The position numbers and the translations under genes were made by a program. DNA of 29,689 bases from a virus: positions 1 to 29,689 of IMG/VR virus record IMGVR_UViG_3300030060_005975. One strand, given 5' to 3'. This document shows positions 6,001 through 29,689 of the stretch, piece after piece (within the stretch, counting starts at the first letter, position 1; each line of letters begins with the position of its first letter). The notes under the pieces are model-generated. The model worked only from the letters and a program-made list of their open reading frames with translations, did not search any database and was not told where the DNA came from.

Positions 6001-9000
6001 TTTAATCAAGAATTTAAAGTAACAGGAATTGGAACAAATGTATTTAAATTTAATCCAACTGAAATTGCTGAAACTAGTTTATATAATTCTACAGGAATAT
6101 CAAGTTTCTTTTATTCGACAAAATCAACTAACGAAGTTGGTGGAATATATTCGATAAACTTATTAAATAGAGGTTTTAATGTAACTAATTTACCTATAAT
6201 TACATCAATTGGCACTAGTGAGGGTAAAAATGTTGTATTAACTGTAGAAACAGATAATATCGGAAGTGTTAACAACACTCAAGTTTTTAATCAAGGTTTA
6301 GAATTTTCTCCAGATAATACATTAAAACCAAAAGCAGATAGTAACATAATTTTAGAATTAAAAGATATATTTACTCTTGAAAATATAGGAATTGTTACTG
6401 GAGGAATTAATTATACAAGCCCTCCGAAAGTAATCGCAATTGGAAAACCAGATATAATTGCACAGACAACTTTAAACGGAACTTCAGTTGACAGTGTTAA
6501 AATTTTAACTAATGATAGTGGATTATCTAAAGATCTTAGAATTATTCCTACGATAAACTCAAATGGTGTTGTAGTAACTCAAGCATCAACTGATAGCAAT
6601 AAAACAGTTACTTTAGGTTTAAGAGCACCTAATCCAGAAACTGGTTCCGATAGTGGATTTTATAATCAGGGTGGAACATTCCCATTTGCGGTGGGTGATG
6701 AAATATTTGTTGAAAATATTAAAACTACTGATGGTAATGATGGATATAATTCTAGTGCTTATGACTATACTTACTTTACTGTTAGTGGTATCAATACTAC
6801 TAGTGGATTAGAATCAATCAGTTATTCTTTAGTTGGACTTGGAATCACTGGAGGAACATATCAACAAGAAAATAATTTTGGTAGAGTCATAAAAAGAAGT
6901 CATTTAGCAGAATTTTTACCAAAATTTAGAAAATCTTCGTTTGTTGAAAATGAAGTGGTTGAAGTTGTTGGTAAAAATATTACAGGAGTAGTTGCTGAAA
7001 ATGGTTGGGATCCTGTATCACAAACATTAAAAATATTTGATGTTACTGGAGATTTTTCAAAGGAAGATTTTATTATAGGTAAAATATCTAACAATAAAGG
7101 AACTGTAACTAACCAATTTAAATTTGATTTTGATTTAAATGTAGACGCAACAGCTAATAATATTAATAGTTGGAAAACTGATACAGGAAAATTAAATTTA
7201 GATATTCAAAGATTACATGATAATAATTACTATCAAAGATTCTCATATTCAGTTAAAGGTGCAGTTCCATTTAATATTTGGAAAGATGCAGTTAATAGTT
7301 TGGATCATGTAGCTGGATTTAAAAATTTCTGTAATTTGGGAATTGGATCTACTGCACAACATTATTTAAAATCAGATGGTGATCTCTTTCTAGAGGTTGA
7401 TATTGATGCAGAAGCATCTGTTCATGAGAAATTTTATTATGATATGGTAAATGAAGACACTGAGGATCCTAATTTATCAAAGTTAGTCGTATTTAAATCA
7501 AAAGTAATAACTGATTATAATGAATCAAGAACTAATAAAGTTTTACTAATAGATGATATAAGTCCACAATTTACAGGAATAGTAACTAGCACTGGTGGTG
7601 GTGTTATAGGAACTACAAGTTTTAATGTATTCACTGATGGAGATCCTCTATTTCATAAAGAATTTAACCCCTCAACAGGAATATCAACTGATACTCATCT
7701 ACTTACAATACCAAAACATAATTTTAATACTGGTGAAAGATTAATTTATAAACCACAATCTGGACAATCAGCAATCGGAATTGCAAGCACTGATGTTCCT
7801 GGTATTGGTGTTACTACATTATTACCATCAGATGTTTTTGCGATAAGAATTGATTCTGACATAATACAAGTTGCTACAGCTGCTAGTTTTGCTAGTGCGG
7901 GAATTGCAGTATCATTTACTGATATAACTGGTATTGGAACAAAACATACTCTATCTGTGCCATCTGAAAATGCTACTATCAGGTCATTAATTAGTATTGA
8001 TAATATAATTCAAAGTCCTGTCGGTGTAACAACAGTTATATCTGTTGGTTTATCAACTGAAGTTGGAATATCAACTGACATTGTATTTTTAAATGATGTT
8101 TCAGAGATTGCTGGTAAATCACTATTAAAAATTGAAGATGAAATATTAAAAGTAAATTTAGTAGGTGTCGGATCTACTAATTCATTAAATGTAATCAGAG
8201 GTCAAATGGGAACTGTTGCTGCAGCACATACTGTTGGTGCAGCAGTCACTGTAGTTAAAGGTGATTATAGAATTAATGAGGGAAGATTATACTTCTCTGA
8301 AGCACCTTATGGGCCTACAGGTAATACTGGAGTTACCACATTTTCTAGTTTTTCTGGAAGAGCATACTATAGATTGGATTATAATACCAATAAAATTATT
8401 GATGACATATCCGATAGATTTGATGGATCTACAGATAAGTTTAGTTTAACTAGTAATGGTACACAATTATCAGGTATCAATACTAGTTTTGGTGCGATAT
8501 TAATTAATAACATTTTCCAAAGACCTTTCTATGGTGATGTTGGTAGTATTAAAGAATCAGATTATGAAATTGTTGGAACTGGTCAAACTATTGATTTTAC
8601 AGGAACTTCTAGTAACAAAGATTTGCCTAGAGGTGGAATCATAAATGAGTTTGATGTTGGTATAGGAAGTGGGTACCAAGTTCCTAGAAAAGCTTTATTC
8701 AGTGCAGTAGTATCTAATACAGGAACTATATCAACTGTGGGAATACTTACTGGAGGTGCTGGTTACATAAATCCACCTATAATTTCAATTGCTTCTAGCA
8801 TTGGATCTGGTGCTACCATAGAAGCATCAATTACAGCAGGAATAGTTACTTCTTTAAATATATCAAATCCTGGTAGTGGATATACATCTACAGGCATTTC
8901 AACTGGACTTAATTTTGTTACTGCTGCACCACCAAGTCCTTACAAAAATATTTCACTGTCTGGTGGCAATGGATCTGGTGCTAAAATAGATGTTGTAGTG

Positions 9001-10434
9001 GGAACTGGTGGTAGCATAGTATCGTTTGATATATCGGATCGTGGTATAGGTTATGAAATAGGAGATAATTTAGAATTAACTACGCTACCTTTCCAAGTTG
9101 GAATTGGAACAAGTGCATTCAATATAACAATTAGAAATAAGTTTCAAGATAAATTTGCAGGTTGGTGTTTTGGTCAATTATTAGAACTTGATGATTTTAG
9201 TGAGCAATTCAATGGATTTAGAAAATCATTCTTAATAACTCGTACAGTTACAAATAAAGAGTATTACAGTATAGTCGCTCAAAAAGGTTCTGGAGTAATC
9301 TTACAAAATAATTTACTTATATTCATAAATGATATTTTACAAAAACCAAACAAAGATTACGAATTTGCAGGTGGGACAAGAATATCATTTAAAGAAGCAC
9401 CAAAAGCAGGTAGTAAATTTAAGATGTATTTTTACACTGGATCTGACGAGGATTATGTTGAGGTTGATGTTGATGAAACAATAAAACCAGGAGATGAATT
9501 ACGATTACAATATTCTGATAGTGTATCTGAACAGGATAATAGAATAATCTATGAATTAATTGCAGCAGATACTGTAGAAACAACAACCTATGGTGGAGTT
9601 GGTATTTCAACTGATGCTAACTTTATTAGACCAACAATGTGGAGAAAACAAACAAATGATTTAATTATAGATGGTGTTAAAATATCAAAGGAGAGGAATT
9701 ACTTAGAACCTCAAATACAACCAACAAGCGGTATCATAAAATCAATAAGTAAAACAGATACTAAGATATATGTCGAAAATACTTGGTTCTTCCAAAGAAT
9801 AGATGATCTAGCTCAAACTAAAAATGATATAACAATTGTTGGTTTAGGAACTACTGCTGTTGTAGAGAAGATTAAAAAAGTGTCATATGCTGGAGATTAT
9901 GGAATTATAGTTGGTATCGGAACCAGTTCAGTTGGTATCAATACCACTGGGCCTGCAATATTCTTTGAAATTAAACCACAACCAGGTGAAGACTATGGAA
10001 TATATGACCCAGACGGAATACCAAACGGTAGTAAAGATAAAAAAAGATCCAGATCAGGTATAAACACTGGTGATTACTTTGTAATTGAAAATACATTTAT
10101 AGGTGATGGTGTTACTGGAATAAAAACTACATCATCTGGCCCTGAAACCGTTGGTATAGGAAATACTTTCTTAGATAATGTGTATTTTGCTGAACATTTT
10201 GTTTCTGTTGGATCATCTGTAACAAGAGTTTTTGCAAATGTTGATTCGATTGCAGGAATAGATACTACAACTTTATCTCCTAGATTTAAATATGGAACAT
10301 ATAGTTGGGGATCGATTGATATTACTAGAGATAGCAATTCAAAATCATTTACTTTCCACAATCAAAATGGAGTTTTAGGAATTGAAACATCAGCTCAAGT
10401 GATAAGAACTCTACCTATAAAAACACTTTACTAA
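43..10434 (+). CDS. Giant gp7-like baseplate wedge protein, 3463 aa
   Basis: Probable homologue of T4 gp7, the large central protein of the baseplate wedge, which joins gp8, gp6 and gp10. Residues 207-234 (ARDFYSSKGT, then VLYGEQVEI) closely match the T4 gp7 segment around SYDFYSTKGIEAS and VLYNEEVEI as I remember it. The following stretch (about 252-316) corresponds to the T4 segment after it. A second match is the W-K-D-A-V motif with H-V-A-G-F at about residue 2413, resembling WKSDVIRFVHPVGF of T4. T4 gp7 is 1032 aa, so this protein is over three times longer. The added sequence is beta-rich repeats: at least eight H-x-F-x-x-G-D/E repeats, about eleven G-x-G-Y repeats, R-G-x-x-G-T modules, and a YHYH-like motif at residues 1251-1265. 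It sits directly before gp8, as in T4. The start follows AAGATAAGAA, a weak ribosome site. The gp7 identity is inferred from motifs and gene order. Confidence 0.8.
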   Translation: MSDKKVKISNILGSQIPDFIQADNPLFREFLTQYYESEEREYGTTYLADHIASLKKIPTIADISLVEKQTIPAPNSTIPESPVILPSLIYAYDNVINVNQTTGFPDKYGLLKIDNEIITYTGKTETSFTGCIRGFSGISAIETAGNPEFLTFSDTNASAHVANSLVVNLSFLFIAEFYKKFKRNFLPGLEGRSLSYGLNVENILSRARDFYSSKGTDTSLQILFQVLYGEQVEIIKPFDQTIMPSEAEWDTTDDIVVEVLSGDPLNLVGVKIYQDSFTNPTASGAVSNVTTKFLGNTKYYQISFSKGTIGDKFKVSTKTKVVGTASTTEVLTVDSTIGFGATGNFYYPNADNVYTLAEYTSKSSNQFFGCTGLSRLLTESDPIIDTNFVYGYEDNDLTKICIMRIVGSISGAADNVSVTKYFDLDDSIRVKHLGEKYDVSNKKFNTWFYNNLSYVNVHQHQAGSSTFTTLTEHFLKIGDIVDIIFTNTEGLIIQDAIISDVYTPTRFLISGGTQLNPIVFGDYTIKKKLNYASSNFGITSLLSNIQNSFSDVDKNTYVAFSGYPSFDTQTTNRSKSVVSSGISTNVNTITITDHNFINGERVYLTISDNSGISGSTSGYFYVNVVDTNTIRLALNPSNLYRNAFEEIKYDGVGTGTHTLIPASLFDGVQLTNQNNFKRILKEPQIRKDNKNISGPIGLSLNGVEYHSPISGDSVFYGQIDELEVLNSGKDFNIVNSPTLSITDDTGSDCEAYANFSGSLSEIIVNEGGFDYSEVPSVSITGGNGTGAVCEAKMRGFTHSKTFTEFEIDLTNNTLVGDHRFLDGEEVTYIATGSPIGINTGVNVGFSTNTLSSGSNYFVSKIDNNSFRLAITKKRAVTKTNLIELIDNGTRSHTFRSNKNRQIIDRIVVKDIGSSYSNHKILIDSQKYPTTNKEDLFKTFVGINTFNNYIYAKNHNFSDGDAVEYICNGTVISGLSTSSAYKVTIIDADKFKLSDAGTVATISNVNYDRKIYVNLGSVGVGTHTFKYPDIQVKIEGKVSVGTTSSIPDYYKSSANAIIKGGLKSIFVKNGGVGYGVTNIINYLRSPNVKLLTGKDGFIVPIISQGKISDIDILNSGSEYTTPPELEVVGVGGTSGTVGQFAKLESIVSDGKITGVNIISRGTGYDANNTIIKVIPSGSEEIIATKVHEWKINSVERYKNYLTLNNSELIQIRSVSLTNNNKICAFYPPKKYRRLLRDNIDSAFNESTTNHSEIVGWSYDGNPIYGPVSTNKSGITTFMESSYALKVISDTDLRPSDYQDGYFIQDYVYDESGDLDEYNGKFVKNSDFPNGTYAYFSTINSTTKNPSFPYITFLHNNFTDDFNYDVTKVQSDKILNTGEYKRNVTHLGVNEQFRTYPLLEDSLKSKALIKVNGVDSSTITKVSVIESGTGYKVNDKLNFNDPTITASVEQVIGKPIISIGTTNTIVNNLIFSVIDNKITGISTTPHGLSAGDIVEISGISSTNYKNIEGVRTIGVSTVTSGLSENIPNLATSGITTFVAFLDSTVNRKFNINDVIQIDSEQFLVIDHDDVNNKYRLRRAHNSTTAATHSTGSLITRLETEFTYEITKKVENINVQLPNTQYFEAARSVGIGSTVTNVVVGFAGSSPVNKSIPPRAIYLPNHPFQSGDEVSLVSIGSTIKASRNASLTPDFDLADFDKLYCLRLNNLYVGLATEKVGFSTNTVFFTQVLTTGGDDNKLETITDNLSGSLRRVNGTVTVATATTTGQQHNLSVNDNFELHVTSNKTQTFDLRYNENIRKLVVNPITFTDTAIGIGTTLSKITLNDHDFNTGDLIVYNSSNPATPLVDNEVYYIIKDSRDTIRLANNEYDTLVFPYNYIGIGTTGGSNHQISKINPQLSLYKNNTIEFLTSDSSLDDFDIEFFIDNNFKSSYNSDLITKTDDKITIEVTNSLAREFYYKVEGKGTNVIKTLSFSVDERVPNYSQIKVIDSEFNQEFKVTGIGTNVFKFNPTEIAETSLYNSTGISSFFYSTKSTNEVGGIYSINLLNRGFNVTNLPIITSIGTSEGKNVVLTVETDNIGSVNNTQVFNQGLEFSPDNTLKPKADSNIILELKDIFTLENIGIVTGGINYTSPPKVIAIGKPDIIAQTTLNGTSVDSVKILTNDSGLSKDLRIIPTINSNGVVVTQASTDSNKTVTLGLRAPNPETGSDSGFYNQGGTFPFAVGDEIFVENIKTTDGNDGYNSSAYDYTYFTVSGINTTSGLESISYSLVGLGITGGTYQQENNFGRVIKRSHLAEFLPKFRKSSFVENEVVEVVGKNITGVVAENGWDPVSQTLKIFDVTGDFSKEDFIIGKISNNKGTVTNQFKFDFDLNVDATANNINSWKTDTGKLNLDIQRLHDNNYYQRFSYSVKGAVPFNIWKDAVNSLDHVAGFKNFCNLGIGSTAQHYLKSDGDLFLEVDIDAEASVHEKFYYDMVNEDTEDPNLSKLVVFKSKVITDYNESRTNKVLLIDDISPQFTGIVTSTGGGVIGTTSFNVFTDGDPLFHKEFNPSTGISTDTHLLTIPKHNFNTGERLIYKPQSGQSAIGIASTDVPGIGVTTLLPSDVFAIRIDSDIIQVATAASFASAGIAVSFTDITGIGTKHTLSVPSENATIRSLISIDNIIQSPVGVTTVISVGLSTEVGISTDIVFLNDVSEIAGKSLLKIEDEILKVNLVGVGSTNSLNVIRGQMGTVAAAHTVGAAVTVVKGDYRINEGRLYFSEAPYGPTGNTGVTTFSSFSGRAYYRLDYNTNKIIDDISDRFDGSTDKFSLTSNGTQLSGINTSFGAILINNIFQRPFYGDVGSIKESDYEIVGTGQTIDFTGTSSNKDLPRGGIINEFDVGIGSGYQVPRKALFSAVVSNTGTISTVGILTGGAGYINPPIISIASSIGSGATIEASITAGIVTSLNISNPGSGYTSTGISTGLNFVTAAPPSPYKNISLSGGNGSGAKIDVVVGTGGSIVSFDISDRGIGYEIGDNLELTTLPFQVGIGTSAFNITIRNKFQDKFAGWCFGQLLELDDFSEQFNGFRKSFLITRTVTNKEYYSIVAQKGSGVILQNNLLIFINDILQKPNKDYEFAGGTRISFKEAPKAGSKFKMYFYTGSDEDYVEVDVDETIKPGDELRLQYSDSVSEQDNRIIYELIAADTVETTTYGGVGISTDANFIRPTMWRKQTNDLIIDGVKISKERNYLEPQIQPTSGIIKSISKTDTKIYVENTWFFQRIDDLAQTKNDITIVGLGTTAVVEKIKKVSYAGDYGIIVGIGTSSVGINTTGPAIFFEIKPQPGEDYGIYDPDGIPNGSKDKKRSRSGINTGDYFVIENTFIGDGVTGIKTTSSGPETVGIGNTFLDNVYFAEHFVSVGSSVTRVFANVDSIAGIDTTTLSPRFKYGTYSWGSIDITRDSNSKSFTFHNQNGVLGIETSAQVIRTLPIKTLY
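1786..7956 (+). repeat. H-x-F-x-x-G-D/E protein repeats in the gp7-like protein
   Basis: At least eight degenerate repeats share the pattern [ND]-H-x-F-x-x-G-[DE]-x-[VL]-x-Y, followed by a Y-x-V strand, an R-L-A strand and often a closing G-T-H-T. Clear cores are DHNFINGERVYL, DHRFLDGEEVTY, NHNFSDGDAVEY, PHGLSAGDIVEI, NHPFQSGDEVSL, DHDFNTGDLIVY and KHNFNTGERLIY. A weaker copy is QHNLSVNDNFEL. Approximate DNA spans are 1786-2019, 2461-2733, 2890-3114, 4447-4600, 5011-5200, 5305-5420, 5488-5700 and 7687-7956. They look like small beta domains strung along the protein. The repetition is visible only at protein level; the DNA copies have diverged. Confidence 0.75.
2203..9080 (+). repeat. G-x-G-Y-x-x-P-P beta repeats in the gp7-like protein
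   Basis: About eleven copies follow the pattern of a hydrophobic strand, then G-G-x-G/D-Y, three or four residues, P-P/S, then V-x-I/V-x-G. Examples are NEGGFDYSEVPSVSITGG (near 2338), NSGSEYTTPPELEVVG (near 3385), TGGINYTSPPKVIAIG (near 6397), TGGAGYINPPIISIAS (near 8749), NPGSGYTSTG (near 8866) and DRGIGYEIGDNLEL (near 9034). Related copies occur in the gp8, DUF4815 and gp14 proteins of this window. The function is unknown; a stacked beta scaffold is an inference. Confidence 0.75.
3790..4065 (+). other. YHYH-like domain inside the gp7-like protein
   Basis: Residues 1251-1265 read EIVGWSYDGNPIYGP, the signature of YHYH-domain proteins (G-x-x-x-D-G-x-P-I-Y-G-P). It is followed by a region rich in D, Y and G (DYQDGYFIQDYVYDESGDLD) and by NGTYAYFSTI, also usual in that family. 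YHYH domains occur in secreted bacterial proteins and in large structural proteins of marine myoviruses. Their biochemical role is unclear; metal or ligand binding is only a guess. Confidence 0.7.
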
Positions 10435-12064: not shown

Positions 12065-15000
12065 ATGCCACAAAATACGAATTTAAACGTCTCTCCTTAT
12101 TTTGATGATTTTGTTGATAGTAAAAACTATCAAAAAGTTTTGTTCAAACCAGGATTTCCAGTTCAAGCAAGGGAATTAACAACATTACAATCAATTCTTC
12201 AAAATCAAATTGAAAAATTTGGACAACACTTCTTTAAAGAAGGTTCAATGGTAATTCCTGGTGGAAATTCTTTTGATAATGAGTATTTTGCGGTAAAGAT
12301 AGATCCTAATTTTTTAAATATTCCAGTAAATAATTATACAAAAATATTAGCTGACAACAAGATAAAGATAAAAGGAGAGGTAACAGGAGTAGAAGCAACA
12401 GTAGTTAACCGTTTGACAGCATCAGAATCTATTGATGGTTTTGATACTTTATACGTTAAATATACAAAATCTGGGCCAGATGCAACTACTGGAGTTTTTG
12501 CAGATGGTGAAAATTTAATAACTCTTTCAAATTTTAATTATTTAAATACAAGTATTGCAGCTGATAGTCAGTTTGCTAGATGTATAGTGTCTAACGCAAC
12601 ATCTACTGGATCTGCATTTTCTGTAAGTGAAGGTATTTTCTTTGTTCGTGGATTTTTTGTAAAAAATGTTGCTTCAACAGTAATATTAGATCAGTATTCA
12701 AACTTTCCAAGTTATAGAGTTGGATTTTTAGTAACAGAAGAAACTGCCTCAGCTTCATCTGTAAATTCTGATTTATATGATAACGCTAAAGGATTTTCAA
12801 ACGAGGCAGCACCTGGTGCGGATAGATTTAAATTATCAGTAACTTTACATAAAAAACTTTTATCAGATATTAACGATAATGATTTTGTTGAGTTACTAAG
12901 AGTAGAAAATGGTGTTGTAAAAAACATAGTTAATAGAACAGAATATAATATATTTGCACAAGAATTAGCAAGAAGAACTTATGATGAATCTGGGGATTAT
13001 TATGTTAAACCATTTGCGTTAACTGCTAAAGAATCGTTAAATGACAGAATTGGTAATAGGGGAGTATACTTTTCTAATCAACAAACACAAAATGGCAATA
13101 CACCTGCAGAAGATATGCTTAGTTTGCAAGTATCTTCAGGAAAAGCATATGTAAGAGGTTATGAAGTAGAAAAAATATCATCATCATCAATTGATATATT
13201 GAAACCAAGAACTACTAAACTAGTTGAAAATCAAAGTTTACCTATTCGAATTGGTAATTCGATGCGAGTTACAAATATAAAAGGAACACCAACTATTGGA
13301 TTTAGTGCAAATTCATCAATTGATTTGAAAAATAGAAGAACTGGTGCAAATCAAGCAACTCAAGGTGATGTGATCGGCCAAGTTAGAGTTTTTGATTACG
13401 ATCAAAAAATAGTAGGAACATCTGCATCATTCTCTACATATGATTTAAAAATTTATGATCTTCAACTGTTCACAAATATTACAACTGCAAACAATTTTTC
13501 AGCAGCAATACATTCACATGTAAGAGGTAAATTTAGTGGATCTGTTGGATATGCAGTTGCAGCAGTAAGTAACGCAACTTCAATAACTCTTCGTGATGTT
13601 ACTGGTTTATTTCAAATCAATGAACCATTAATTATAAATGGAGTAGATTCAGGAAACAACATATTAACTGCTATTGATAATAGTTTTGAAGATGTAAAAT
13701 CAGTAAGTCACTCTTCTGGATTTACAGCAAATACAGTTTTAGATCGTAAGAAGAAAGTATTCAATGAGGGTGTAGAGTTTAGCATTACTGGTGGAAACGC
13801 ATTGGCTTCTGGGTCAATTGCTGATTTCAGAAGTCAATTGAAAGATGGAGATATAATTTCATATGCAACAACAACTGCTGGTGATCCAGTTTTTAATGAA
13901 GTTGGAACAGTTGATAAAAGTAGTGTGGCTCTTACTGCTGTTGAAACCCTTGATGAAGTTTGTAATGGTGCAGTTGTTAATAGCACACCTACTGGTGTTG
14001 ATGTTTTAATTCCATCTTTAAAGGAATCTGATGATCCTGGCTTTAGAGTTAAATTAGCAGACAGATATATCGAATCAATCAATGTTTTAGATAGTTCTTA
14101 TATCACAAGAAAACAACTTACAGGAACTGCAAGTGCAAATGGTGTTACATTTAATATTAGTTCAATCGGTGGAGATACAAGTAATCTTTTCTTTGAACCA
14201 TTTAGCACATCAAATTACGTTTTAGAAGTTGGTGGAAAATTAGAAAAACTTCTAGAACCAATGGTAACCATAAATGCAACTCTTAGAACAATTGCTATAA
14301 CTGGATTATCACAAGCAAGTGGTGCTGCAAAATTAACAGCTGCAGTGAGAAGAAGTGCGTTGGCATCAAAAGAAAAATCAATAGTAAGATGTGATGATTT
14401 AATTATTAATAGATCAAATTTGGATGGATCAGGTATTACAACTACATCATTTAATGATGGATTAACATTTAATGCTGTTTATGGAACAAGAGTTCAAGAT
14501 GAGGAAATATCTTTAAATGTTCCAGATGTTGTTCGTGTTTTAGCAGTATTTGAAACTAATGATTCAACTGATCCAGATTTACCATTAATAGGTGTTACAA
14601 ATCAAACAGATACATTTACTGGAAATGTAACTGTTGGAGAACAATTTGTTGGTGGATCATCAGGTGCAGTTGCTCGTGTAGTGGTAGTACAAGCGACTCA
14701 GTTATCTTTTGTTTATGAAAACGAAAATATATTCGAAGTTGGCGAAAACATCTCTCTGAAGACCTCTGGGATCTTTGCTACAATAACTGGTGTTACACCA
14801 GGTGATAGAAATATTCTTAAAAACTTTAAATTAGATAACGGACAAAGAGTTGAGTTTGCTGATTTTTCTAGACTTATCAGAAAACCTAATGTTGAGAAAC
14901 CATCTCGTAAATTAAGAGTTATCTTTGATCGTCTTCAAAATAATGAAGTATCAGGAAATATAGAAACAGTTAATAGTTACAATGGTCTAGATTATTCTAC

Positions 15001-18000
15001 AGAAATACCATACGTTTTTGATAGATACGCTTCTGATTTTATTGACTTTAGACCAAGAGTTGCAAAATACAATGCAGGAAGTAGTATTTCTCCATTCTCA
15101 TATGCATCGAGAGATTTTTCGTCTACTAATTCAGAATCAGTAGTGTCTGGTAAAACTGTTGTAGTTGATTACTCGTACTATCAAGGCCGAATTGATAGAT
15201 TATATCTAACAAAAGAAGGAACATTTGTTGTAAAAGAAGGAACACCATCTAGATTTCCAAAAGCACCTCTACCAAATGAAGAATCATTCCAAGTTGCTAC
15301 CTTAAAACTGTCACCTTATATCAGAAACGCATCATCAGAAGTTTTAATTAAAACTGTTCCTCATAAGAGATATACGATGAGAGATATTGGAAGTCTCGAA
15401 AATAGAATTAAAAATTTAGAAAATTATACAACACTATCATTATTAGAAACAGACACTAAAAATTTAGTAATTAAAGATCCAAATACTGGATTAGATAAAT
15501 TTAAATCTGGTTTTTTTGTAGATAATTTTAGAAATCACAATTCTCATAATTTAACTGGGGAATCTAAATTTGATATTGATATTGAAAAAAGTGAATTAAG
15601 ACCAAGAACAACAGAAAGAAATGTAAGTTTATTATTTGAAACTGTTACTACTCAAGCAAATCCATTAACTACAGATTATAATTTTGTTAATGATTTTCCT
15701 GATTCAAATATTACAAGAGGTGGTGCAGCTTTAACTTTAAGTTATACCGAAGAAATATTCTTAAATCAACCAAAAGCAACTCGAACAGAAAACTTAAATC
15801 CATTCCTTGTTGATGTATTTGTTGGTACAATTGATTTACTTCCTAATTCTGATTTTTGGATCGAAGAAATACCTTTAGAACCATTAAATGCTGAGATTGA
15901 TAATGCATATGATGCAATTTCAACAATATTGGGAGTTGAAGATCGTGAAAATGGTGGAATGGCATCTAGTTTCTTCAATTCACACGAAACTACTTGGAAT
16001 GGTAGAGACAGTGCTACTTTAGTTGATGAAGACGTTATTGATCAAGTAGTTCATTCACAAAGTAGAACTGTTCTTGATGAACGAGATATTGGTCAAGCAA
16101 TAATTACTACTATTCAAACTACCAGTGATGTTGAAAATACAATTAGACAAACATTTGAAGAGTCGGGAATAGAAAAAGAATTTGGACTTGAACTATCAGC
16201 AGGCACACAAGTTGTTGATTTAGGCACTAAGGTTGTAGGTATTGATGTATTATATAATGTGAGATCAAGAAATGTTCAGGTACACGCAAAAAGACTAAAA
16301 CCAAATACAAGATTTTATGTCTTTATGGAAAATACTGACCTTACATTATTTGCGGTTCCTAAGTATCTTCCAATTACAATGAATAGAGGAACTTTCCTTC
16401 CTAATGATATAGTTGAAAGTGTGGGTGAAGTAAATCCTGGTAGTGCTAATATAAAATTTAGAACTGCAGTTATAAATCACAAGTTAGGCCCATACAACGA
16501 TCCTGATCAAACTCTTGCTAGATGTATATTACCAAATGTTGGTGAAATAACTATTCCCACAACATATTCAAGTACTAGTGAAATTATAAACATTGATACT
16601 GCCGATTTAGCTCTTGATAATGATACTGAAACTGGTGGGTATGTTAAAAAAGGAATGAAAATTACTTCTGTTTTAGGTAGTGCGGAGGCAACAGTCGGTG
16701 ATGTAGCTTTAGTAAGTGATGAAAGAGGTGATCTAATATTCTCCCTACATATTCCTGATCCAAAAGTTATAGGTAATCCTTTATTCACTACTGGTAATAA
16801 CACCATAAGAGTAACAACAAGTGATACTAATGCAAGTATATTGGATCCTGGTTCTAGTTCAGCAGAGGCAGAATACTTAGCGAGTGGATATCAAACAAAT
16901 ACACAAGAACAAACATTATCAATTAAGACACCAAAGGTTGAAAGAAAACAAGTTGGTGTAAGAGATGTAACTAGAACATTTACAAGAGATAGAACTGAAC
17001 GAGTTCAAGAAGTTACAATAAACACAGAATATGAAGAGGTTGACAATAGTGATCCATTGGCACAGTCATTCTTTGTTGATTCTGAAAGTTATCAAGATGG
17101 TGTTTTTATTACTAGTGGAGAACTATTCTTTAAAACAAAAGATGAAGAACTTCCAGTAACTGTTCAAATACGAACTATGAGAGACGGAACACCAACTGAA
17201 ACACTTGTTCCATTTGGTGAAACTGAAATAGATCCAAGTGATGTAAATGTATCTGATGATGGAAGTGTTGCCACAGAATTTAAATTTAAATCACCAGTTT
17301 ATCTGCAAAGTGGATATGAATATTCTTTAATATTACTAGCAGGTAGAACTCTTAATTATCTAGCCTTCATAAACAGAATGGGTGAAATTGATTTAATCAC
17401 TCAAGCATTTAATAGTGGTCAACCAACTCTTGGTTCATTATTTAAATCACAAAATAATAGAACTTGGACTCCAAGTCAATATGAGGATCTTAAATTTAAA
17501 CTTAATAAAGCAAGTTTTGTAACAAATCAACCGTCAAGTGTTTTACTTCGTAATAGTAAATTACCTCTTGGTAAGATTAGAAAAGAAAATCCAGCAATAG
17601 GATTCTCAAAGAGAGTTAGTATAAAATTATCATCTACTAGTTCTGCAACATTTGCACAAGGTGAAGAGGTTAGACAAACAACTGCACTTGGTGTTGAAAA
17701 CACTGGAAGAATATTTGCATCTGGTGGGCCTTTGGCAACTGGTGCTAGTAAGTTAACAATTGTAAGTGATAATGAAGGTATTAGTGGTATTGGATTAACT
17801 AGTGGAACATTTACTGGAGTTGGTGTTTCAGCACTAACAGGTTCAGGAACTGGTGCAGTTGTTTCGTTAACAGTTAACACTTCATCTACGCCAAATATAG
17901 CAGGTGCTGCAGTAACTGTAACCACTGCTGGTTCAGGTTATGCTCCTGGTGATTTACTACTACTAGGAAATATTGGTGCTACAGGATCAGGAGTAAGAGT

Positions 18001-19426
18001 AGTTGTTACGAGTTCTTCAAGTGTAAACAATACAGATTTGTTAATTTTAGATGACGTTAAAGATAGTTTTGTAGATACTAGAGATATAGTTCATTTTGCT
18101 GGTGGTGGAACTCAGACTACAATAGCAAATGCCGATATTGCTACAGTTAATCCAGATCCAATAAGAGATGGATATACACTCCAGTTTGATCATAGAAATC
18201 ATGGAATGCATTCAAGCACTAATAAAGTAAAAATATCAAACTTCCACCCTGATGCAATACCAACAGTCTTAACCAGTAACATAGATGATGATACCACATC
18301 AATTACTGTTTCAGATGGAACAGATTTCTCAACATTTGAAGGAACTGCAGTTGGAGCTGGAAAATCAGGATTCCTCCTTATTGATAAAGAAATTATTCAA
18401 TATAATACAATTTCAAGTAATACAATTACTATTGATGGTGCTGATCGAGGTATTAATTCTAGTTTAAAATCAAACCACTCTGCAAATACTCTAGTTTACA
18501 AATATGAATTTAATGGAGTATCTTTATTAAAAATCAATAAGGAACACGATATAGATCCTAGAGAGAGAGCATTTGATAGTTACTTTATAAAAGTTTTTGA
18601 TACAGAATTTGCAGACACTGATCCAACATTTATTACTACTAAATCTGGCGGTGGGAGTGCAGTTCATGCTTCTCAAAATATTCCTTTTGAGATGATTGAT
18701 CCTCAAATTACATCAATAACACCTACAGGAACAAATATATCTGGCAGAATTAAAACAATATCTGGAACTAGTATAAGTGGTAATGAAGGTTCATTTAGAG
18801 ATGTTGGTTATGAAAATATATCACTAAACAAATTAAACTTCCTTGATAGTCCAAGAATGGTTGCATCAAAAATAAATGAGGAAGAATTACTTAGCAATGA
18901 AAGATCATTTGCTTTAGAGTTAACACTTTCAACCAATAATCCTGACGTATCTCCAGTGGTTGACTTAGAAAACCCAAATGCTATTCTCATAAGCAACCTA
19001 GTAGATGATAATGTAGATAATTTTGAAACTGATAGTAGACCAAAAATACCTGGTTCTGATCCAAATACTGCGATATATGAAACAAAAATGATCAACTTAG
19101 AGTTTGTTTCAAATTCACTATTTGTTCAGTTTGATGGTCATAGAGAAGCAGAGGGTGATATTAGGTTATTCTATAAATTAATTCGAGGTGATGGTGATGA
19201 TGATCACGCAACTTACATACCATTTAATAATGACGGATCTTCTGATAGTCCTGTGAATCCAAATAGAACAAGAGATACTTTTAGTGAGTATAAATTTACC
19301 GCAGAAAATACAGCTCAGTTCAAATCATTTATGATCAAAGTTGTTATGACATCCACAAATCAAGCAAAACCACCTAGAGTTAAGAACTTTAGAGCAATTG
19401 CACTTAGATCATTTGAAATTGATTAA
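12065..19426 (+). CDS. DUF4815-type baseplate/virion structural protein, 2453 aa
   Basis: The first ~80 residues are typical of DUF4815 proteins of marine T4-like phages: NVSPYFDDFVDSKNYQKVLF, then FPVQARELTTLQSILQNQIE and FGQHFFKEGSMVIPG. A short coiled-coil-like stretch lies at about 1109-1134 (SLENRIKNLENY). A second conserved block begins near residue 1663 with DPLAQSFFVDSESYQDGVF, continues through VQIRTMRDGTPTET, and includes LGSLFKSQNNRTWTPSQYED. The C-terminus (VKNFRAIALRSFEID) is also a usual family ending. The protein lies where T4 has gp9-gp12, so it probably forms the outer baseplate and may carry fibre attachment; this role is inferred from position only. It contains SGA-x-A type modules (near 14630), one A-G-S-G-Y repeat (near 17930) and an R-G module (18345-18504). 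The stop overlaps the next ATG (TAATG). Confidence 0.85.
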   Translation: MPQNTNLNVSPYFDDFVDSKNYQKVLFKPGFPVQARELTTLQSILQNQIEKFGQHFFKEGSMVIPGGNSFDNEYFAVKIDPNFLNIPVNNYTKILADNKIKIKGEVTGVEATVVNRLTASESIDGFDTLYVKYTKSGPDATTGVFADGENLITLSNFNYLNTSIAADSQFARCIVSNATSTGSAFSVSEGIFFVRGFFVKNVASTVILDQYSNFPSYRVGFLVTEETASASSVNSDLYDNAKGFSNEAAPGADRFKLSVTLHKKLLSDINDNDFVELLRVENGVVKNIVNRTEYNIFAQELARRTYDESGDYYVKPFALTAKESLNDRIGNRGVYFSNQQTQNGNTPAEDMLSLQVSSGKAYVRGYEVEKISSSSIDILKPRTTKLVENQSLPIRIGNSMRVTNIKGTPTIGFSANSSIDLKNRRTGANQATQGDVIGQVRVFDYDQKIVGTSASFSTYDLKIYDLQLFTNITTANNFSAAIHSHVRGKFSGSVGYAVAAVSNATSITLRDVTGLFQINEPLIINGVDSGNNILTAIDNSFEDVKSVSHSSGFTANTVLDRKKKVFNEGVEFSITGGNALASGSIADFRSQLKDGDIISYATTTAGDPVFNEVGTVDKSSVALTAVETLDEVCNGAVVNSTPTGVDVLIPSLKESDDPGFRVKLADRYIESINVLDSSYITRKQLTGTASANGVTFNISSIGGDTSNLFFEPFSTSNYVLEVGGKLEKLLEPMVTINATLRTIAITGLSQASGAAKLTAAVRRSALASKEKSIVRCDDLIINRSNLDGSGITTTSFNDGLTFNAVYGTRVQDEEISLNVPDVVRVLAVFETNDSTDPDLPLIGVTNQTDTFTGNVTVGEQFVGGSSGAVARVVVVQATQLSFVYENENIFEVGENISLKTSGIFATITGVTPGDRNILKNFKLDNGQRVEFADFSRLIRKPNVEKPSRKLRVIFDRLQNNEVSGNIETVNSYNGLDYSTEIPYVFDRYASDFIDFRPRVAKYNAGSSISPFSYASRDFSSTNSESVVSGKTVVVDYSYYQGRIDRLYLTKEGTFVVKEGTPSRFPKAPLPNEESFQVATLKLSPYIRNASSEVLIKTVPHKRYTMRDIGSLENRIKNLENYTTLSLLETDTKNLVIKDPNTGLDKFKSGFFVDNFRNHNSHNLTGESKFDIDIEKSELRPRTTERNVSLLFETVTTQANPLTTDYNFVNDFPDSNITRGGAALTLSYTEEIFLNQPKATRTENLNPFLVDVFVGTIDLLPNSDFWIEEIPLEPLNAEIDNAYDAISTILGVEDRENGGMASSFFNSHETTWNGRDSATLVDEDVIDQVVHSQSRTVLDERDIGQAIITTIQTTSDVENTIRQTFEESGIEKEFGLELSAGTQVVDLGTKVVGIDVLYNVRSRNVQVHAKRLKPNTRFYVFMENTDLTLFAVPKYLPITMNRGTFLPNDIVESVGEVNPGSANIKFRTAVINHKLGPYNDPDQTLARCILPNVGEITIPTTYSSTSEIINIDTADLALDNDTETGGYVKKGMKITSVLGSAEATVGDVALVSDERGDLIFSLHIPDPKVIGNPLFTTGNNTIRVTTSDTNASILDPGSSSAEAEYLASGYQTNTQEQTLSIKTPKVERKQVGVRDVTRTFTRDRTERVQEVTINTEYEEVDNSDPLAQSFFVDSESYQDGVFITSGELFFKTKDEELPVTVQIRTMRDGTPTETLVPFGETEIDPSDVNVSDDGSVATEFKFKSPVYLQSGYEYSLILLAGRTLNYLAFINRMGEIDLITQAFNSGQPTLGSLFKSQNNRTWTPSQYEDLKFKLNKASFVTNQPSSVLLRNSKLPLGKIRKENPAIGFSKRVSIKLSSTSSATFAQGEEVRQTTALGVENTGRIFASGGPLATGASKLTIVSDNEGISGIGLTSGTFTGVGVSALTGSGTGAVVSLTVNTSSTPNIAGAAVTVTTAGSGYAPGDLLLLGNIGATGSGVRVVVTSSSSVNNTDLLILDDVKDSFVDTRDIVHFAGGGTQTTIANADIATVNPDPIRDGYTLQFDHRNHGMHSSTNKVKISNFHPDAIPTVLTSNIDDDTTSITVSDGTDFSTFEGTAVGAGKSGFLLIDKEIIQYNTISSNTITIDGADRGINSSLKSNHSANTLVYKYEFNGVSLLKINKEHDIDPRERAFDSYFIKVFDTEFADTDPTFITTKSGGGSAVHASQNIPFEMIDPQITSITPTGTNISGRIKTISGTSISGNEGSFRDVGYENISLNKLNFLDSPRMVASKINEEELLSNERSFALELTLSTNNPDVSPVVDLENPNAILISNLVDDNVDNFETDSRPKIPGSDPNTAIYETKMINLEFVSNSLFVQFDGHREAEGDIRLFYKLIRGDGDDDHATYIPFNNDGSSDSPVNPNRTRDTFSEYKFTAENTAQFKSFMIKVVMTSTNQAKPPRVKNFRAIALRSFEID
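18345..18504 (+). repeat. R-G-x-x-(S/G)-x-x-x-x-H module in the DUF4815 protein
   Basis: The protein segment FLLIDKEIIQYNTISSNTIT then ADRGINSSLKSNHSANTLV follows the pattern I-D-x-E-x-I, a short beta hairpin, D/R-R-G, and a histidine before a hydrophobic strand. The same pattern occurs in the gp7-like protein (KIEDEILKVNLVG, then RGQMGTVAAAHTVGA near 8197) and in gp15 (near 25069). Modules of this type are common in phage tail and baseplate proteins. The exact role is unknown to me. Confidence 0.6.
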
Positions 19427-19652: not shown

Positions 19653-19660
19653 TATAAATA
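19653..19660 (+). promoter_or_regulatory. T4-type late promoter box before the small tail/fibre genes
   Basis: A perfect TATAAATA starts three bases after the stop at 19650 and lies 29 bases before the ATG at 19690. The 39-base gap is among the longest in the cluster and holds only this box and an AT-rich leader. It would start a late transcript through the fibre and neck genes. Confidence 0.75.
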
Positions 19661-25658: not shown

Positions 25659-26365
25659 AAACATTCAAAGAATTTATACAAGAAAGCAGTCTTTCAAGAA
25701 TTAAAAGTAAAGCAGATAAAGGAGGAATGGCTGTTCTTTCTGGAAGTCGTGCAGATAAATCTAAGAAAGAAAATCAGGCAAGAGCAAAGCAATTAGATAA
25801 AGATATTCGTGGTAGAGGTTTACCTGGTGCAACTAAAGTAACTGGTAGATATGATGAAAAGGATAAGAAAACTGGTGAGGTTACTAAAGTAAAAGAAAGA
25901 AGTCACGTTGTAACTTCTGGTAAAATGGGTAAGAAAAAGTTTAAGAAAACAATCAAAGCACTTGGTAAAAAATATGATCAAGATGCAGTCATTACCCAAA
26001 CAAAAGGTGGTGGAGGTGCTACACTTAAAAGAACCCGTAAAGGTGCGTTACCAAAAAGAAATATACCAGTTGGAAAAATGAGACCAGGTAGAACTGGTGA
26101 AATGGATACTCGCATAAAAGGAAAGACATTTACTTATGAGTCATATCTTCGTATTCAGGAAAGAGGTAAAACTTATACGATAGCACTTAACTGGAGAGGT
26201 AAATTAATCACCACTCAAATGTTTATACCATCATTTAAGAGACCATCAAAAGCAGAGATGACAGCAGAAGTACAAAAAGTATATCCAACATCAGTTGTGA
26301 TGTATTTTAGTCCATCAGTGGTAGATCCAACAAAACCGATGTTATTTGCTGGACAAGAAACGTAA
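25655..26365 (+). CDS. Basic protein with capsid-targeting-like N-terminus, 236 aa
   Basis: Unnamed protein between the two terminase genes. Residues 1-10 (MKTFKEFIQE) closely resemble the capsid targeting sequence of T4 internal head proteins (MKTYQEFIAE), including the I-x-E site cut by the gp21 prohead protease. Here cutting would leave Ser11 as the new N-terminus. Residues ~22-118 (MAVLSGSRADKSKKEN, QARAKQLDKDIRG, VTGRY, ERSHVV, ALGKKYDQDAVI) follow the layout of DUF3293 proteins. The middle is very rich in Lys and Arg. Residues ~172-235 (YTIALNWRGKLITTQMFIPS, KRPSKAEMTAEVQKVYP, DPTKPMLFAG) form a distinct C-terminal domain that I do not recognise. It is coupled to gp16 by a four-base overlap. 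An internal head protein ejected with DNA is a reasonable hypothesis; a packaging accessory role is the alternative. Confidence 0.8.
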   Translation: MKTFKEFIQESSLSRIKSKADKGGMAVLSGSRADKSKKENQARAKQLDKDIRGRGLPGATKVTGRYDEKDKKTGEVTKVKERSHVVTSGKMGKKKFKKTIKALGKKYDQDAVITQTKGGGGATLKRTRKGALPKRNIPVGKMRPGRTGEMDTRIKGKTFTYESYLRIQERGKTYTIALNWRGKLITTQMFIPSFKRPSKAEMTAEVQKVYPTSVVMYFSPSVVDPTKPMLFAGQET

Positions 26366-26371
26366 ATTGTC

Positions 26372-28015
26372 ATGAGTGAAATTTATCTTGGTAATCCTAA
26401 TCTAAAAAAAGCAAATACACCGATTGAATTCACTGCAAAGCAGATTGAAGAATTTATGAAGTGTAAAAATGATCCTGTTTATTTCTCACAGAAATATGTA
26501 AAAATTGTGAGTCTTGATGAAGGATTAGTTCCGTTCAAACCATATAAATTTCAAGAAAAATTAATTAAGAGATTTCATAAAAACCGTTTTAATATTTGTA
26601 AGATGCCTCGACAAACAGGTAAATCTACAACTGTGGTATCTTATCTACTTCACTATGCAGTTTTTAATGATAGTGTAAATATTGGTATACTAGCAAACAA
26701 AGCTGCAACTGCAAGAGAATTATTAGGGAGATTACAGACTGCCTATGAAAATTTACCAAAGTGGATGCAACAAGGTGTATTAGTATGGAACCGTGGATCA
26801 TTGGAGTTAGAAAATGGATCTAAAATACTTGCAGCATCTACCTCCGCATCTGCAGTTAGAGGTATGTCTTTCAACATTCTTTTTCTGGACGAGTTTGCCT
26901 TTGTTCCTAATCATATCGCTGACTCGTTCTTTGCCTCTGTATATCCTACTATTACTTCTGGTAAAAAAACCAAAGTCATCATAGTTTCTACTCCACACGG
27001 TATGAATCATTTTTACCGACTGTGGCATGATGCAGAACGAGGAAAGAATGAGTATACACCGACTGATGTTCACTGGTCTGAAGTACCAGGTCGAAATGCA
27101 AAGTGGAAAAAACAAACGATTGCTAATACATCAGAACAACAATTCAAGATTGAGTTTGAATGTGAGTTCTTGGGATCTATTGATACTCTGATTGCTCCAA
27201 GTAAACTCAAAGCATTAGTATATGAGAATCCAATCAAACAGAATGCAGGTCTAGACATTTATATTCCTTCAGAAAAAAATCACGATTACTTAATGACAGT
27301 TGATGTTGCAAGAGGTGTTGGAGAGGATTACTCTGCATTTGTATTGACTGACATCACCGAGTTTCCACATAAGGTCGTGGCAAAGTATCGAAACAATGAA
27401 ATCAAACCAATGTTGTTTCCTAATATCATATACGAAGTGGCAATGAATTACAATCAAGCATTTATTCTTTGTGAAGTCAATGATATTGGTGATCAGATTG
27501 CTTCAATACTTAATTTTGATATGGAATACGAGAACCTTTTAATGTGTTCAATGAGAGGTCGTGCAGGTCAAATTGTAGGTCAGGGATTTAGTGGAAAGAA
27601 AACTCAACTTGGAGTTAAGATGTCCAAGACAGTTAAAAAAGTAGGAGCATTGAATCTCAAAACTATGATTGAAGAGAATAAATTATTATTCAAAGATTAT
27701 GAGATAATATCAGAACTCACCACATTCATATCAAAAAGTAATTCGTTTGAGGCTGAGGAGGGGTGTAATGATGACTTAGCAATGTGTCTTGTAATTTATG
27801 CTTGGTTAGTTGCACAGGATTATTTCAAAGAACTCACAGATCAGGATGTAAGAAAAAGATTATATGAAGAACAGAAGAATCAGATTGAACAAGATATGGC
27901 ACCATTTGGATTTATTTCTGATGGATTAGATGAAGGAAGTTTTGTTGATGAAGATGGAGATAGATGGCATGTTGATGAATATGGAGATCGATCATATATG
28001 TGGGAGTATCGTTAA
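26372..28015 (+). CDS. 17: Large terminase subunit gp17
   Basis: DNA-packaging motor with ATPase and headful nuclease domains; it docks on the portal and translocates DNA into the prohead. Visible motifs are Walker A PRQTGKST (residues 79-86), Walker B ILFLDEF with Asp173-Glu174, and the coupling motif STPHG (206-210). The RNaseH-like nuclease has Asp311 in TVDVARG, Glu368 in LCEVND and Asp467/Asp468 in CNDDLAM, matching the catalytic acids of T4 gp17. The length is 547 aa against 610 in T4, so the gene is complete. The C-terminus is acidic (EGSFVDEDGDRWHVDEYGDR). It begins seven bases after the preceding stop. The sequence is uninterrupted, with no intron or homing endonuclease insertion. 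Confidence 0.97.
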   Translation: MSEIYLGNPNLKKANTPIEFTAKQIEEFMKCKNDPVYFSQKYVKIVSLDEGLVPFKPYKFQEKLIKRFHKNRFNICKMPRQTGKSTTVVSYLLHYAVFNDSVNIGILANKAATARELLGRLQTAYENLPKWMQQGVLVWNRGSLELENGSKILAASTSASAVRGMSFNILFLDEFAFVPNHIADSFFASVYPTITSGKKTKVIIVSTPHGMNHFYRLWHDAERGKNEYTPTDVHWSEVPGRNAKWKKQTIANTSEQQFKIEFECEFLGSIDTLIAPSKLKALVYENPIKQNAGLDIYIPSEKNHDYLMTVDVARGVGEDYSAFVLTDITEFPHKVVAKYRNNEIKPMLFPNIIYEVAMNYNQAFILCEVNDIGDQIASILNFDMEYENLLMCSMRGRAGQIVGQGFSGKKTQLGVKMSKTVKKVGALNLKTMIEENKLLFKDYEIISELTTFISKSNSFEAEEGCNDDLAMCLVIYAWLVAQDYFKELTDQDVRKRLYEEQKNQIEQDMAPFGFISDGLDEGSFVDEDGDRWHVDEYGDRSYMWEYR

Positions 28016-28056
28016 TGTTACAGAAAACAAAGATAAAGCAAATATTAAATGCTTAA
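28015..28056 (+). CDS. Possible 13-codon leader ORF after gp17
   Basis: An ATG overlapping the gp17 stop (TAATG) opens a 13-residue frame, MLQKTKIKQILNA, ending at TAA 28054-28056. It is lysine-rich and could be chance. The same TAATG overlap couples real genes at 19426, which is the only support for translation. It ends inside the candidate box at 28052-28059. Confidence 0.2.
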   Translation: MLQKTKIKQILNA

Positions 28057-28059
28057 ATA
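28052..28059 (+). promoter_or_regulatory. Weak candidate promoter region before the small-gene cluster
   Basis: CTTAAATA resembles a late box with two mismatches and lies 16 bases before the ATG at 28076. A TATAAT stands at 28072-28077 but overlaps that ATG and has no matching -35 sequence. The 60-base gap between gp17 and the next gene is one of the two longest in the window, so a control element here is plausible. Confidence 0.25.
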
Positions 28060-28075
28060 ATTTTTGTAGGGTATA

Positions 28076-28252
28076 ATGGATTGGGATATAGAAGTAAAGT
28101 TATCTGAAATGGAGAACATGATTACTGTTTACGAAAAACACATTGAAGCACTTGAACATGAAAATAAAAGTTTGAAAGCTCAGATTTTATTTTTAACACA
28201 ACAACTAGAGTATAAAACTTTTGGAAAACCTAATAATGAGGAGGATTTATGA
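28076..28252 (+). CDS. Small coiled-coil protein after gp17, 58 aa
   Basis: The frame reads MDWDIEVKLSEMENMITVYE, continues through HIEALEHENKSLKAQILFLT and ends GKPNNEEDL. The spacing of hydrophobic residues is clearly heptad-like across most of its length, so it is probably a coiled-coil oligomer. TAGGG six bases upstream of the ATG is a possible ribosome site. The gene's stop overlaps the next ATG (ATGA). I do not recognise a family. Confidence 0.6.
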   Translation: MDWDIEVKLSEMENMITVYEKHIEALEHENKSLKAQILFLTQQLEYKTFGKPNNEEDL

Positions 28253-28404
28253 GTGGTGACATAGGATTACGAGATGATAGTATCATCTTTTACAGTAAAG
28301 AAATGACCCAAACAAAGTTAGTTTTACTAGCACACAAGGGTATTAAATTAGATTGGAAAGAATATGAGTATCACACTTCAACAAGTAAACGAATCTCTAA
28401 ATGA
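28249..28404 (+). CDS. Hypothetical protein, 51 aa
   Basis: The frame starts at an ATGA overlap with the preceding gene, with GAGGAGG just upstream (28238-28244), a strong ribosome site. It reads MSGDIGLRDDSIIFYSKEMT and ends in a basic tail, STSKRISK. It overlaps the Nfu gene by 41 bases, so either its last 14 residues are read in a second frame or one of the two is not translated. No family is recognised. Confidence 0.5.
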   Translation: MSGDIGLRDDSIIFYSKEMTQTKLVLLAHKGIKLDWKEYEYHTSTSKRISK

Positions 28405-28648
28405 TATTAGACCTTACATTGAATCAGATGGTGGGTATCTAGAACTAGTGGAAGTTGATTTTGATTTAGATGAAGACATCAGAATGTATTATGGTGTTCG
28501 AGAAGGTGAAGAAGCAGCAATTGCGAAAGTAAGATTAAGTGGTGCTTGCGAATCTTGTGCGATGAGTGCACAGACTTTAAGAATGGGAATCGAAAGACAT
28601 CTTACGCAAACTTTTCCAGAAATAGTAGGAGTAATACAGGTATTATGA
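28364..28648 (+). CDS. NifU-like (Nfu) iron-sulfur scaffold protein, 94 aa
   Basis: Stand-alone Nfu domain, the carrier that holds or delivers a 4Fe-4S cluster bridged between two subunits. The family pattern is clear: NESLNDIRPYIESDGGYLEL, then VRLSGACESCAMSAQTLRMG with the cluster-binding C-x-x-C, and a closing IERHLTQTFPEIVGVIQVL. An acidic loop of about 15 residues (DLDEDIRMYYGVREGEE) lengthens the turn between the strands. The length is normal for a lone Nfu domain. GGAAAG lies just before the ATG. It is a host-type metabolic gene set among late phage genes; NifU-like genes are known in marine myoviruses. It may supply Fe-S clusters to host or phage enzymes during infection, which is inference. 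The stop overlaps the next ATG. Confidence 0.92.
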   Translation: MSITLQQVNESLNDIRPYIESDGGYLELVEVDFDLDEDIRMYYGVREGEEAAIAKVRLSGACESCAMSAQTLRMGIERHLTQTFPEIVGVIQVL

Positions 28649-28851
28649 AGTCCGTTATTCTTGTTGCTTGCTTCTTACCACTAGCAATTATCTACATAGT
28701 TATGAAACTTGCGGTATGGTTATCTGCTACAAATGCTGAATCTACGTATGTTAAAAAAGAATCTCTCAGACCACACGGCCCGTATTTGGCAGATGCGTAT
28801 GCAGACGTTGACGAGGAGGAAGAAGAGTATTGGAATATCACAAAAGATTGA
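28645..28851 (+). CDS. Small membrane protein with one helix, 68 aa
   Basis: The chosen start is the ATG at 28645, which overlaps the Nfu stop (ATGA). A longer in-frame ATG at 28546 would read through the Nfu gene as a shadow. Residues ~3-27 (VILVACFLPLAIIYIVMKLA) form one membrane helix or an uncleaved signal anchor, ending in VWLSATNA. The remaining ~40 residues are soluble and end in an acidic cluster (DVDEEEEEYWNITKD). The family is unknown. A role at the host membrane is suggested by the helix only. Confidence 0.6.
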   Translation: MKSVILVACFLPLAIIYIVMKLAVWLSATNAESTYVKKESLRPHGPYLADAYADVDEEEEEYWNITKD

Positions 28852-28966
28852 TAGTATCTTATTTGAGTGGTATTCTGAGAGAGACATGGAAGTTCCAAAT
28901 TGGAAAATGAAAACTGATCCAGATTGGTGGATTGATTATTTGGAAGAGTTAAAACAATATGGATGA
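28793..28966 (+). CDS. Small acidic protein, start uncertain, about 26-58 aa
   Basis: The frame ending at 28966 has a protein-like C-terminal part: SQKIDSILFEWYSERDMEVP, then NWKMKTDPDWWIDYLEELKQ. The start is unclear. ATG 28709 would overlap the membrane-protein gene by 143 bases and seems too early. ATG 28793 overlaps it by 59 bases. ATG 28886 lies outside it but drops half of the plausible sequence. An ATT at about 28829 preceded by GAGGAGGAAGAAG could also serve but would be unusual. It overlaps the next gene by eight bases. No family is recognised. Confidence 0.45.
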   Translation: MRMQTLTRRKKSIGISQKIDSILFEWYSERDMEVPNWKMKTDPDWWIDYLEELKQYG

Positions 28967-29189
28967 AGAGTTTGGTTTTGATTTAGAACATCTACTCTTC
29001 AAAGAAAGAAAGTGTAGAGTTTGTGGAGAGATAAAAGATTTAGTGAATGAGTTTTACTTAGTGCGTAAGAATAAAAGAAATTTTCCATCTGCATATTCAT
29101 ATGAGTGTAAGATATGCACAATCAAAAGAATTGTCAAGAGTAGAAAGAATTTAATTATATCAAAGGAGTGGGCATATCCTGACTGGTGA
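28959..29189 (+). CDS. CxxC/CxxC zinc-binding-like protein, 76 aa
   Basis: Two C-x-x-C pairs are visible, Cys19-x-x-Cys22 (KCRVCGEIKDLVNEFY) and Cys50-x-x-Cys53 (YSYECKICTIKRIVKS). The spacing is that of a small zinc-ribbon fold seen in phage HNH-associated and recombination-endonuclease-like proteins. No H-N-H or other catalytic motif follows, so an enzyme is not supported; DNA or RNA binding is possible. The C-terminus is basic (IKRIVKSRKN). I recall similar proteins near gp17/gp18 of marine T4-like phages. It overlaps the preceding frame by eight bases and is the last gene before the gp18 promoter. Confidence 0.7.
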   Translation: MDEEFGFDLEHLLFKERKCRVCGEIKDLVNEFYLVRKNKRNFPSAYSYECKICTIKRIVKSRKNLIISKEWAYPDW

Positions 29190-29195
29190 TGTTCA

Positions 29196-29215
29196 TGCAT
29201 TGTTTCCCCAATGTA
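29196..29215 (+). other. Short inverted repeat between the small-gene cluster and gp18
   Basis: TGCATTG (29196-29202) can pair with CAATGTA (29209-29215) across the six-base loop TTTCCC, with one G-T pair. It is followed by AAAAG rather than a T-run, so it is not a typical factor-independent terminator. It may only stabilise the end of the upstream transcript. The 85-base gap holding it and the late promoter box is the longest non-coding stretch in the window. Confidence 0.25.
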
Positions 29216-29227
29216 AAAGTAGCGATT

Positions 29228-29235
29228 AATAAATA
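29228..29235 (+). promoter_or_regulatory. Late promoter box before gp18
   Basis: AATAAATA followed by CTTTT differs from the T4 late consensus TATAAATA at the first base only. It lies 39 bases before the gp18 ATG, in the longest intergenic gap of the window. A separate late promoter fits the high demand for sheath protein. Confidence 0.55.
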
Positions 29236-29274
29236 CTTTTAGTAAAATTGAATCTTTTATAAAGAGGGAAAGAC

Positions 29275-29689
29275 ATGTCGCTTAACTTAGTATCTCCTGG
29301 AGTCAAGGTAAGAGAAGTTGACTTGACTATCGGTAATATATCTGGAGCTAATGAACAGGTCGGAGCGATTGCTGGCCCATTTGAAAAAGGCCCCATTGAC
29401 GTACCGATATTAGTAGAAAACGAACAAGATCTTCTTGCAACTTATGGTAAACCATTAGATAAAGACGGACAATTTGAGTATTGGATGACTGCATCATCAT
29501 ATCTTTCATATGGTGGTACATTAAGAGTTTTGAGATCCGATGGTGCAAATTTAAACAACGCAAATGCAGGTGTTAGTATTGCATCAACAACTGTAAAAAT
29601 TAAAGGTTATGATGATTATACAGCAAATTACACACTTGCTTCTGATTGGTTCTATGCTGCAAAAAATCCTGGCACTTGGGGTAATGGAT
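29275..29689 (+). CDS. 18: Tail sheath protein gp18, 5' part
   Basis: Start of the contractile tail sheath protein; its contraction drives the tube through the host envelope. The N-terminus LNLVSPGVKVREVDLTIGNI fits the sheath family, in which S-P-G-V-x-V-x-E-x-D is the hallmark. It is followed by VGAIAGPFEKGPIDVPILVE and an E-Q-D-L-L-A-T-Y-G-K-P segment. WMTASSYLSYGGTLRVLR is the conserved first-domain motif. The window ends after 138 codons, so the reading frame is open at the edge. Ribosome site GAGGG lies six bases before the ATG, and a late promoter box lies at 29228-29235. Position directly after the gp17 region agrees with T4 order. Confidence 0.95.
   Translation, partial: MSLNLVSPGVKVREVDLTIGNISGANEQVGAIAGPFEKGPIDVPILVENEQDLLATYGKPLDKDGQFEYWMTASSYLSYGGTLRVLRSDGANLNNANAGVSIASTTVKIKGYDDYTANYTLASDWFYAAKNPGTWGNG

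Follow-up and report, generated by a model that had tools for sequence, protein, structure and literature searches.

Cyanophages are known to carry photosynthesis proteins, and PSSM2_228 of phage P-SSM2 is already annotated as nifU. Earlier work counts viral nifU among the auxiliary genes (PMC7785012; PMC8940887), and scaffolds with psaDCAB and gp17 have been figured in a paper whose main text contains neither nfu nor nifU (PMC5019241). The NfuA protein of Synechococcus 7002 can pass [4Fe-4S] on to PsaC, and two such clusters are bound by NdhI (PMC7058544). The literature searched, which was largely open-access, yielded no report of an Nfu gene at gp17/gp18, of the insertion described below or of adjacency between ndhI and nfu, and no discussion of phage-supplied help for Fe-S loading of photosynthesis proteins. 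Viral nifU is thus known, and the absence of the loop subtype and of the ndhI-nfu linkage from this literature is weak evidence of their novelty.

The window analysed here, 29,689 bases long, is the entire IMG/VR record IMGVR_UViG_3300030060_005975, a fragment of a virus genome. Judged by its gp13-gp18 late gene order and cyanophage-type gp17, the contig comes from a marine T4-like cyanophage (Kyanoviridae) near Prochlorococcus phage P-TIM68; its gp17 is also 87% identical to that of Bellamy. We read its nfu gene, with a probability of roughly 0.55, as encoding a late-made Nfu carrier that was acquired long ago and supplies [4Fe-4S] proteins of photosynthetic electron transport, whether phage- or host-encoded. 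The gene and its surroundings comprise the following features.

26372..28015, + strand: gp17, terminase large subunit, late gene upstream of nfu (family match; 87% identical to P-TIM68)
28076..28252, + strand: small ORF with a predicted coiled coil between gp17 and nfu (detected in 17/63 loci)
28249..28404, + strand: 51-aa ORF that shares 41 nt with the start of nfu in another frame (detected in 36/63 loci)
28364..28648, + strand: nfu, encoding a 94-aa Nfu (NifU C-terminal) domain protein (Pfam, PHROG, fold, P-TIM68 homologue)
28466..28507, + strand: insertion, residues 35-48 of Nfu, with a predicted short helix at 37-42 and invariant R40, Y43, G44 and V45
28547..28558, + strand: C62-E-S-C65, predicted cluster-binding CxxC, both Cys invariant
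28645..28851, + strand: 68-aa ORF with no function assigned, beginning at the nfu stop codon (ATGA overlap; phrog_2832, E=1.5e-30; detected in 26/63 loci)
28959..29189, + strand: endonuclease-VII-like four-cysteine protein (phrog_4723, E=3.4e-34; 60/63 loci)
29275..29689, + strand: gp18, tail sheath, truncated at the contig end (phrog_23, E=3.8e-20)

The first-pass annotation had placed a complete Nfu domain with C-E-S-C between gp17 and gp18, and the computed evidence bears this out. Besides the flanking genes, the ORF is complete from ATG to TGA, and its product matches Pfam NifU (PF01106; E=1.3e-19, 70.5 bits against a curated cut-off of 27) and, over its full length, phrog_29737 (E=2e-46). 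The AlphaFold model (pLDDT 89.7) has an Nfu fold, for which a Foldseek search of the PDB returned Arabidopsis CnfU as the top match (2z51, 7.3e-06), followed by a rice NifU-like protein (2jnv, 1.8e-04) and human NFU1 (2m5o, 4.6e-04). C62 and C65 are invariant across 51 aligned phage and cyanobacterial Nfu, and form the CxxC predicted to bind an Fe-S cluster. It consists of the Nfu domain alone, with no additional N-terminal domain; it shares this C-terminal domain with NifU and E. coli-type NfuA, but remains far under the cut-offs of the full-length equivalogs (TIGR02000 and TIGR03341; 39.3 and 32.8 bits against about 270). Cyanobacterial NfuA and plant CnfU likewise have a single Nfu domain with CxxC, but are 39-47% identical to the window protein, lack the insertion and read GACGSCPSS where it reads GACESCAMS. 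The top cellular relatives among the matches listed are all cyanobacterial save one MAG named Tatlockia. Among phages, the P-TIM68 homologue (AIR93439.1; KM359505, 98130-98411) is 76% identical, with the same insertion and the same place between gp17 and gp18. Since this protein is annotated as hypothetical and phrog_29737 is labelled as of unknown function, the Nfu identity has gone unrecorded for both. P-SSM2 nifU and its IMG/VR relatives are also Nfu-only with CxxC and belong to the same phage group in the tree, although P-SSM2 nifU is only about 42% identical, has no insertion, adjoins petE and lies far from gp17.

The insertion, previously described as an acidic loop distinguishing the protein from common bacterial Nfu, is real and is absent from the cyanobacterial Nfu examined, but "acidic" is half the story, because its acidic flanks enclose on both sides an invariant R-x-x-Y-G-V core. 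It lies between strands 1 and 2, at the site of a tight turn in host (cyanobacterial) Nfu, and amounts to 14 aa relative to loopless phage Nfu and 18 relative to a plant Nfu. Across 54 distinct nucleotide sequences R40, Y43, G44 and V45 are invariant and M41 and Y42 nearly so. No gap-free counterpart was found among the 80 cellular loci listed, all of which match with a gap at this site. Such strong conservation where cyanobacterial Nfu have a tight turn would fit an Nfu that the insertion has turned from a carrier into a protein binding or inhibiting some host Fe-S factor, an idea that we consider highly improbable, as the invariant CxxC and the purifying selection on the core are both expected if clusters are still carried.

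The median dN/dS among loop-type nfu sequences is 0.067, a value that indicates purifying selection and rules out nfu as a neutral passenger. For 74 of the 80 viral nfu relatives retrieved, gp17, gp18 or the intervening endonuclease-VII-like gene is no more than 2 kb away, and gp18 is often just 45-50% identical among the viral loci sharing this placement. The placement beside gp17/gp18 is thus old and under selection, and a recent insertion in one isolate fails as an explanation, since the arrangement is kept in dozens of diverged contigs. In a tree of 94 rows, phage Nfu form a single group (SH-aLRT 100) apart from cyanobacterial Nfu, in answer to the phylogenetic check that had been proposed, although the alignment is short and the inner order unsure. 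Every one of the 37 rows assigned to the loop type sits at gp17/gp18, and two rows assigned in the tree to the loopless type (L053 and L065) are in fact loop-type fragments truncated at a contig end. In Bellamy, SynMITS9220M01, S-SM2 and S-SCSM1 a single spacer gene separates gp17 from gp18 and no Nfu lies there, indicating that the locus gained or lost Nfu.

Whether a phage enzyme or a virion protein needs the cluster had been raised as a question by the position among late genes. A cluster or metal supplied by Nfu to a late phage protein, such as a tail protein or the endonuclease-VII-like four-Cys neighbour, would agree with the gp17-gp18 position and with the packing of nfu with the latter gene in 60 of 63 loci. 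We judge this quite improbable, because about two fifths of the sister Nfu loci are away from late genes and the endonuclease-VII-like gene also occurs in phages whose gp17-gp18 gap has no Nfu, for which reason it was rejected as a dedicated client. No finding of the analysis points to a client in the virion. The gp17 flank moreover looks like a photosynthesis-gene hotspot; as it bears photosynthesis genes in other contigs, the position of nfu need not mean a role in assembly. Near gp17, ndhI was seen in L112, L285, L114, L144, L152 and L157, and the order ndhI-nfu-unknown-gp17 occurs twice.

The second genomic context of the family lends support to the earlier suspicion that the cluster serves an enzyme and not the capsid. 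Among 80 loopless sister loci, 45 have gp17/gp18 nearby, 21 have photosynthetic electron-transport genes nearby, 2 have both and 12 have neither, "nearby" meaning within 2 kb for the electron-transport genes (23/80). In 8 of the 80, nfu is at most 10 nt from ndhI or ndhP; since the 9% chance level for adjacency is a rough estimate based on P-TIM68 and the loci share ancestry, p-values are indicative only. AG-345-D19 has ndhI and nfu matches with 2 nt in common, some sister nfu genes are near plastocyanin (petE), ferredoxin (petF) or photosystem genes, and L098, a second contig with photosystem-I genes, combines Nfu, ndhP and ndhI with the start of psaJF. A short NdhP-like match was also noticed 6 nt past nfu in L308, L309, L316, L347 and L350, which suggests that a further NDH-1 subunit is coupled to the carrier. 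The P-TIM68 genome itself has genes for PsaJF, C, A, B, K, E, D, NdhI, PsbA and PsbD as well as for a glutaredoxin, and its psa cassette and nfu are about 84 kb apart. Searches for ndhI of the cyanophage type identified it in P-TIM68, in P-TIM40 and in eight viruses from single cells; Nfu is present in 8 of these 10, the two without it being P-TIM40, which gave no Nfu match, and a 23-kb fragment. That nfu relatives often lie beside photosynthetic electron-chain genes suggests a role of phage Nfu in helping to sustain the light-driven energy supply of the host during infection.

On this favoured reading, the gene, acquired long ago and retained beside gp17, would be transcribed probably with the late block; the host Fe-S assembly system would load the phage Nfu with clusters, and the Nfu would hand [4Fe-4S] to NdhI of NDH-1 and, in photosystem I, to PsaC and PsaA/B, whether these proteins come from the phage or the host. 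Light would thereby go on supplying energy for as long as virions are being produced. If this is true, cluster delivery is a virus-controlled step that keeps host photosynthesis going, and the idea can be tested in P-TIM68, a phage available in culture whose Nfu still bears the label hypothetical. In a narrower version, the loop subtype would be a virus-specific factor that matures the photosystem I and NDH-1 encoded by the virus, its RxxYGV helix docking on phage-type PsaC or NdhI and steering clusters late in infection preferentially to the phage's own electron-transport proteins. We regard this narrower version as speculative and unlikely. Counting against the favoured reading itself are the lack of Nfu in P-TIM40, the negative client searches in G040 and P-SSM2 described below, and the fact that adjacency to ndhI/ndhP is seen for the loopless sister type, the loop-type genes being all at gp17/gp18; nor was ndhI found in loop-type contigs, although these are fragments of at most 61 kb.

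The distribution of possible clients also bears on general Fe-S housekeeping, in which phage Nfu would have no dedicated client and, when iron is scarce or photo-oxidative stress sets in, would take the place of host Nfu or add to it in serving Fe-S proteins of any kind. An interpretation of this sort exists for viral Fe-S genes (PMC8940887), and some Nfu-bearing phages have no recognised Fe-S client. One example is G040, a 236-kb contig with Nfu at gp17/gp18 that gave no NdhI, PsaA/B, Fer2 or radical-SAM match. Several large Nfu contigs matched no recognised phage client, one of the client queries matching nothing among them but matching in another search; P-SSM2 has Nfu and gave no NdhI or PsaA/B match. 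Radical-SAM matches in two contigs, G041 and G045, indicate that the clients of Nfu may vary. Housekeeping alone, which we hold possible though somewhat unlikely, leaves the repeated ndhI/ndhP adjacency and the petE/petF neighbourhood unexplained. Shared host ecology may lie behind part of the co-occurrence of nfu with photosynthesis genes. Phage [2Fe-2S] ferredoxin was rejected as a general client, since, of the 283 phage records that contain petF, five are known to have Nfu, and no general petF-Nfu link follows. In the collection searched, no phage besides P-TIM68 has psaA or psaC, and contig L091, not a classified phage, has psaA/psaB and no Nfu. The psa contigs of IMG/VR are few, and those examined end inside or beside the cassette; IMG/VR thus under-counts such phages. 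L097, L098 and L101 are viral contigs ending inside the photosystem-I cassette.

The probable late timing of nfu is read from promoter motifs and position. The cyanophage late-promoter motif is NATAAATA (PMC2984593), with the core ATAAATA; it is strongly depleted in the window (3 found against 21.5 expected), and the three cores, at 10443, 19654 and 29229, each lie just 5′ of a structural/late gene or its leading ORF. These sparse copies give a clean map of late units. Two of them flank nfu, both located by motif search.

19653..19660, + strand: late-promoter motif TATAAATA, the closest one upstream of nfu
29228..29235, + strand: late-promoter motif AATAAATA, 5′ of gp18 and 3′ of nfu

Of 55 loci, 45 have the motif between nfu and gp18, usually 41-46 bases ahead of gp18, and none has it between the start of gp17 and nfu. 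From this arrangement nfu is probably carried on upstream transcripts, with the nearest candidate start at 19653, and so transcribed with the late block. Within 26200-29689, no terminator-like sites were found and promoter-like matches showed no excess over shuffles. The 41-nt overlap of the 51-aa ORF with nfu makes translational coupling possible. Farther upstream, 43-10434 and 12065-19426 hold very long ORFs of 3463 and 2453 aa, in size like the giant baseplate/neck proteins annotated in P-TIM68.
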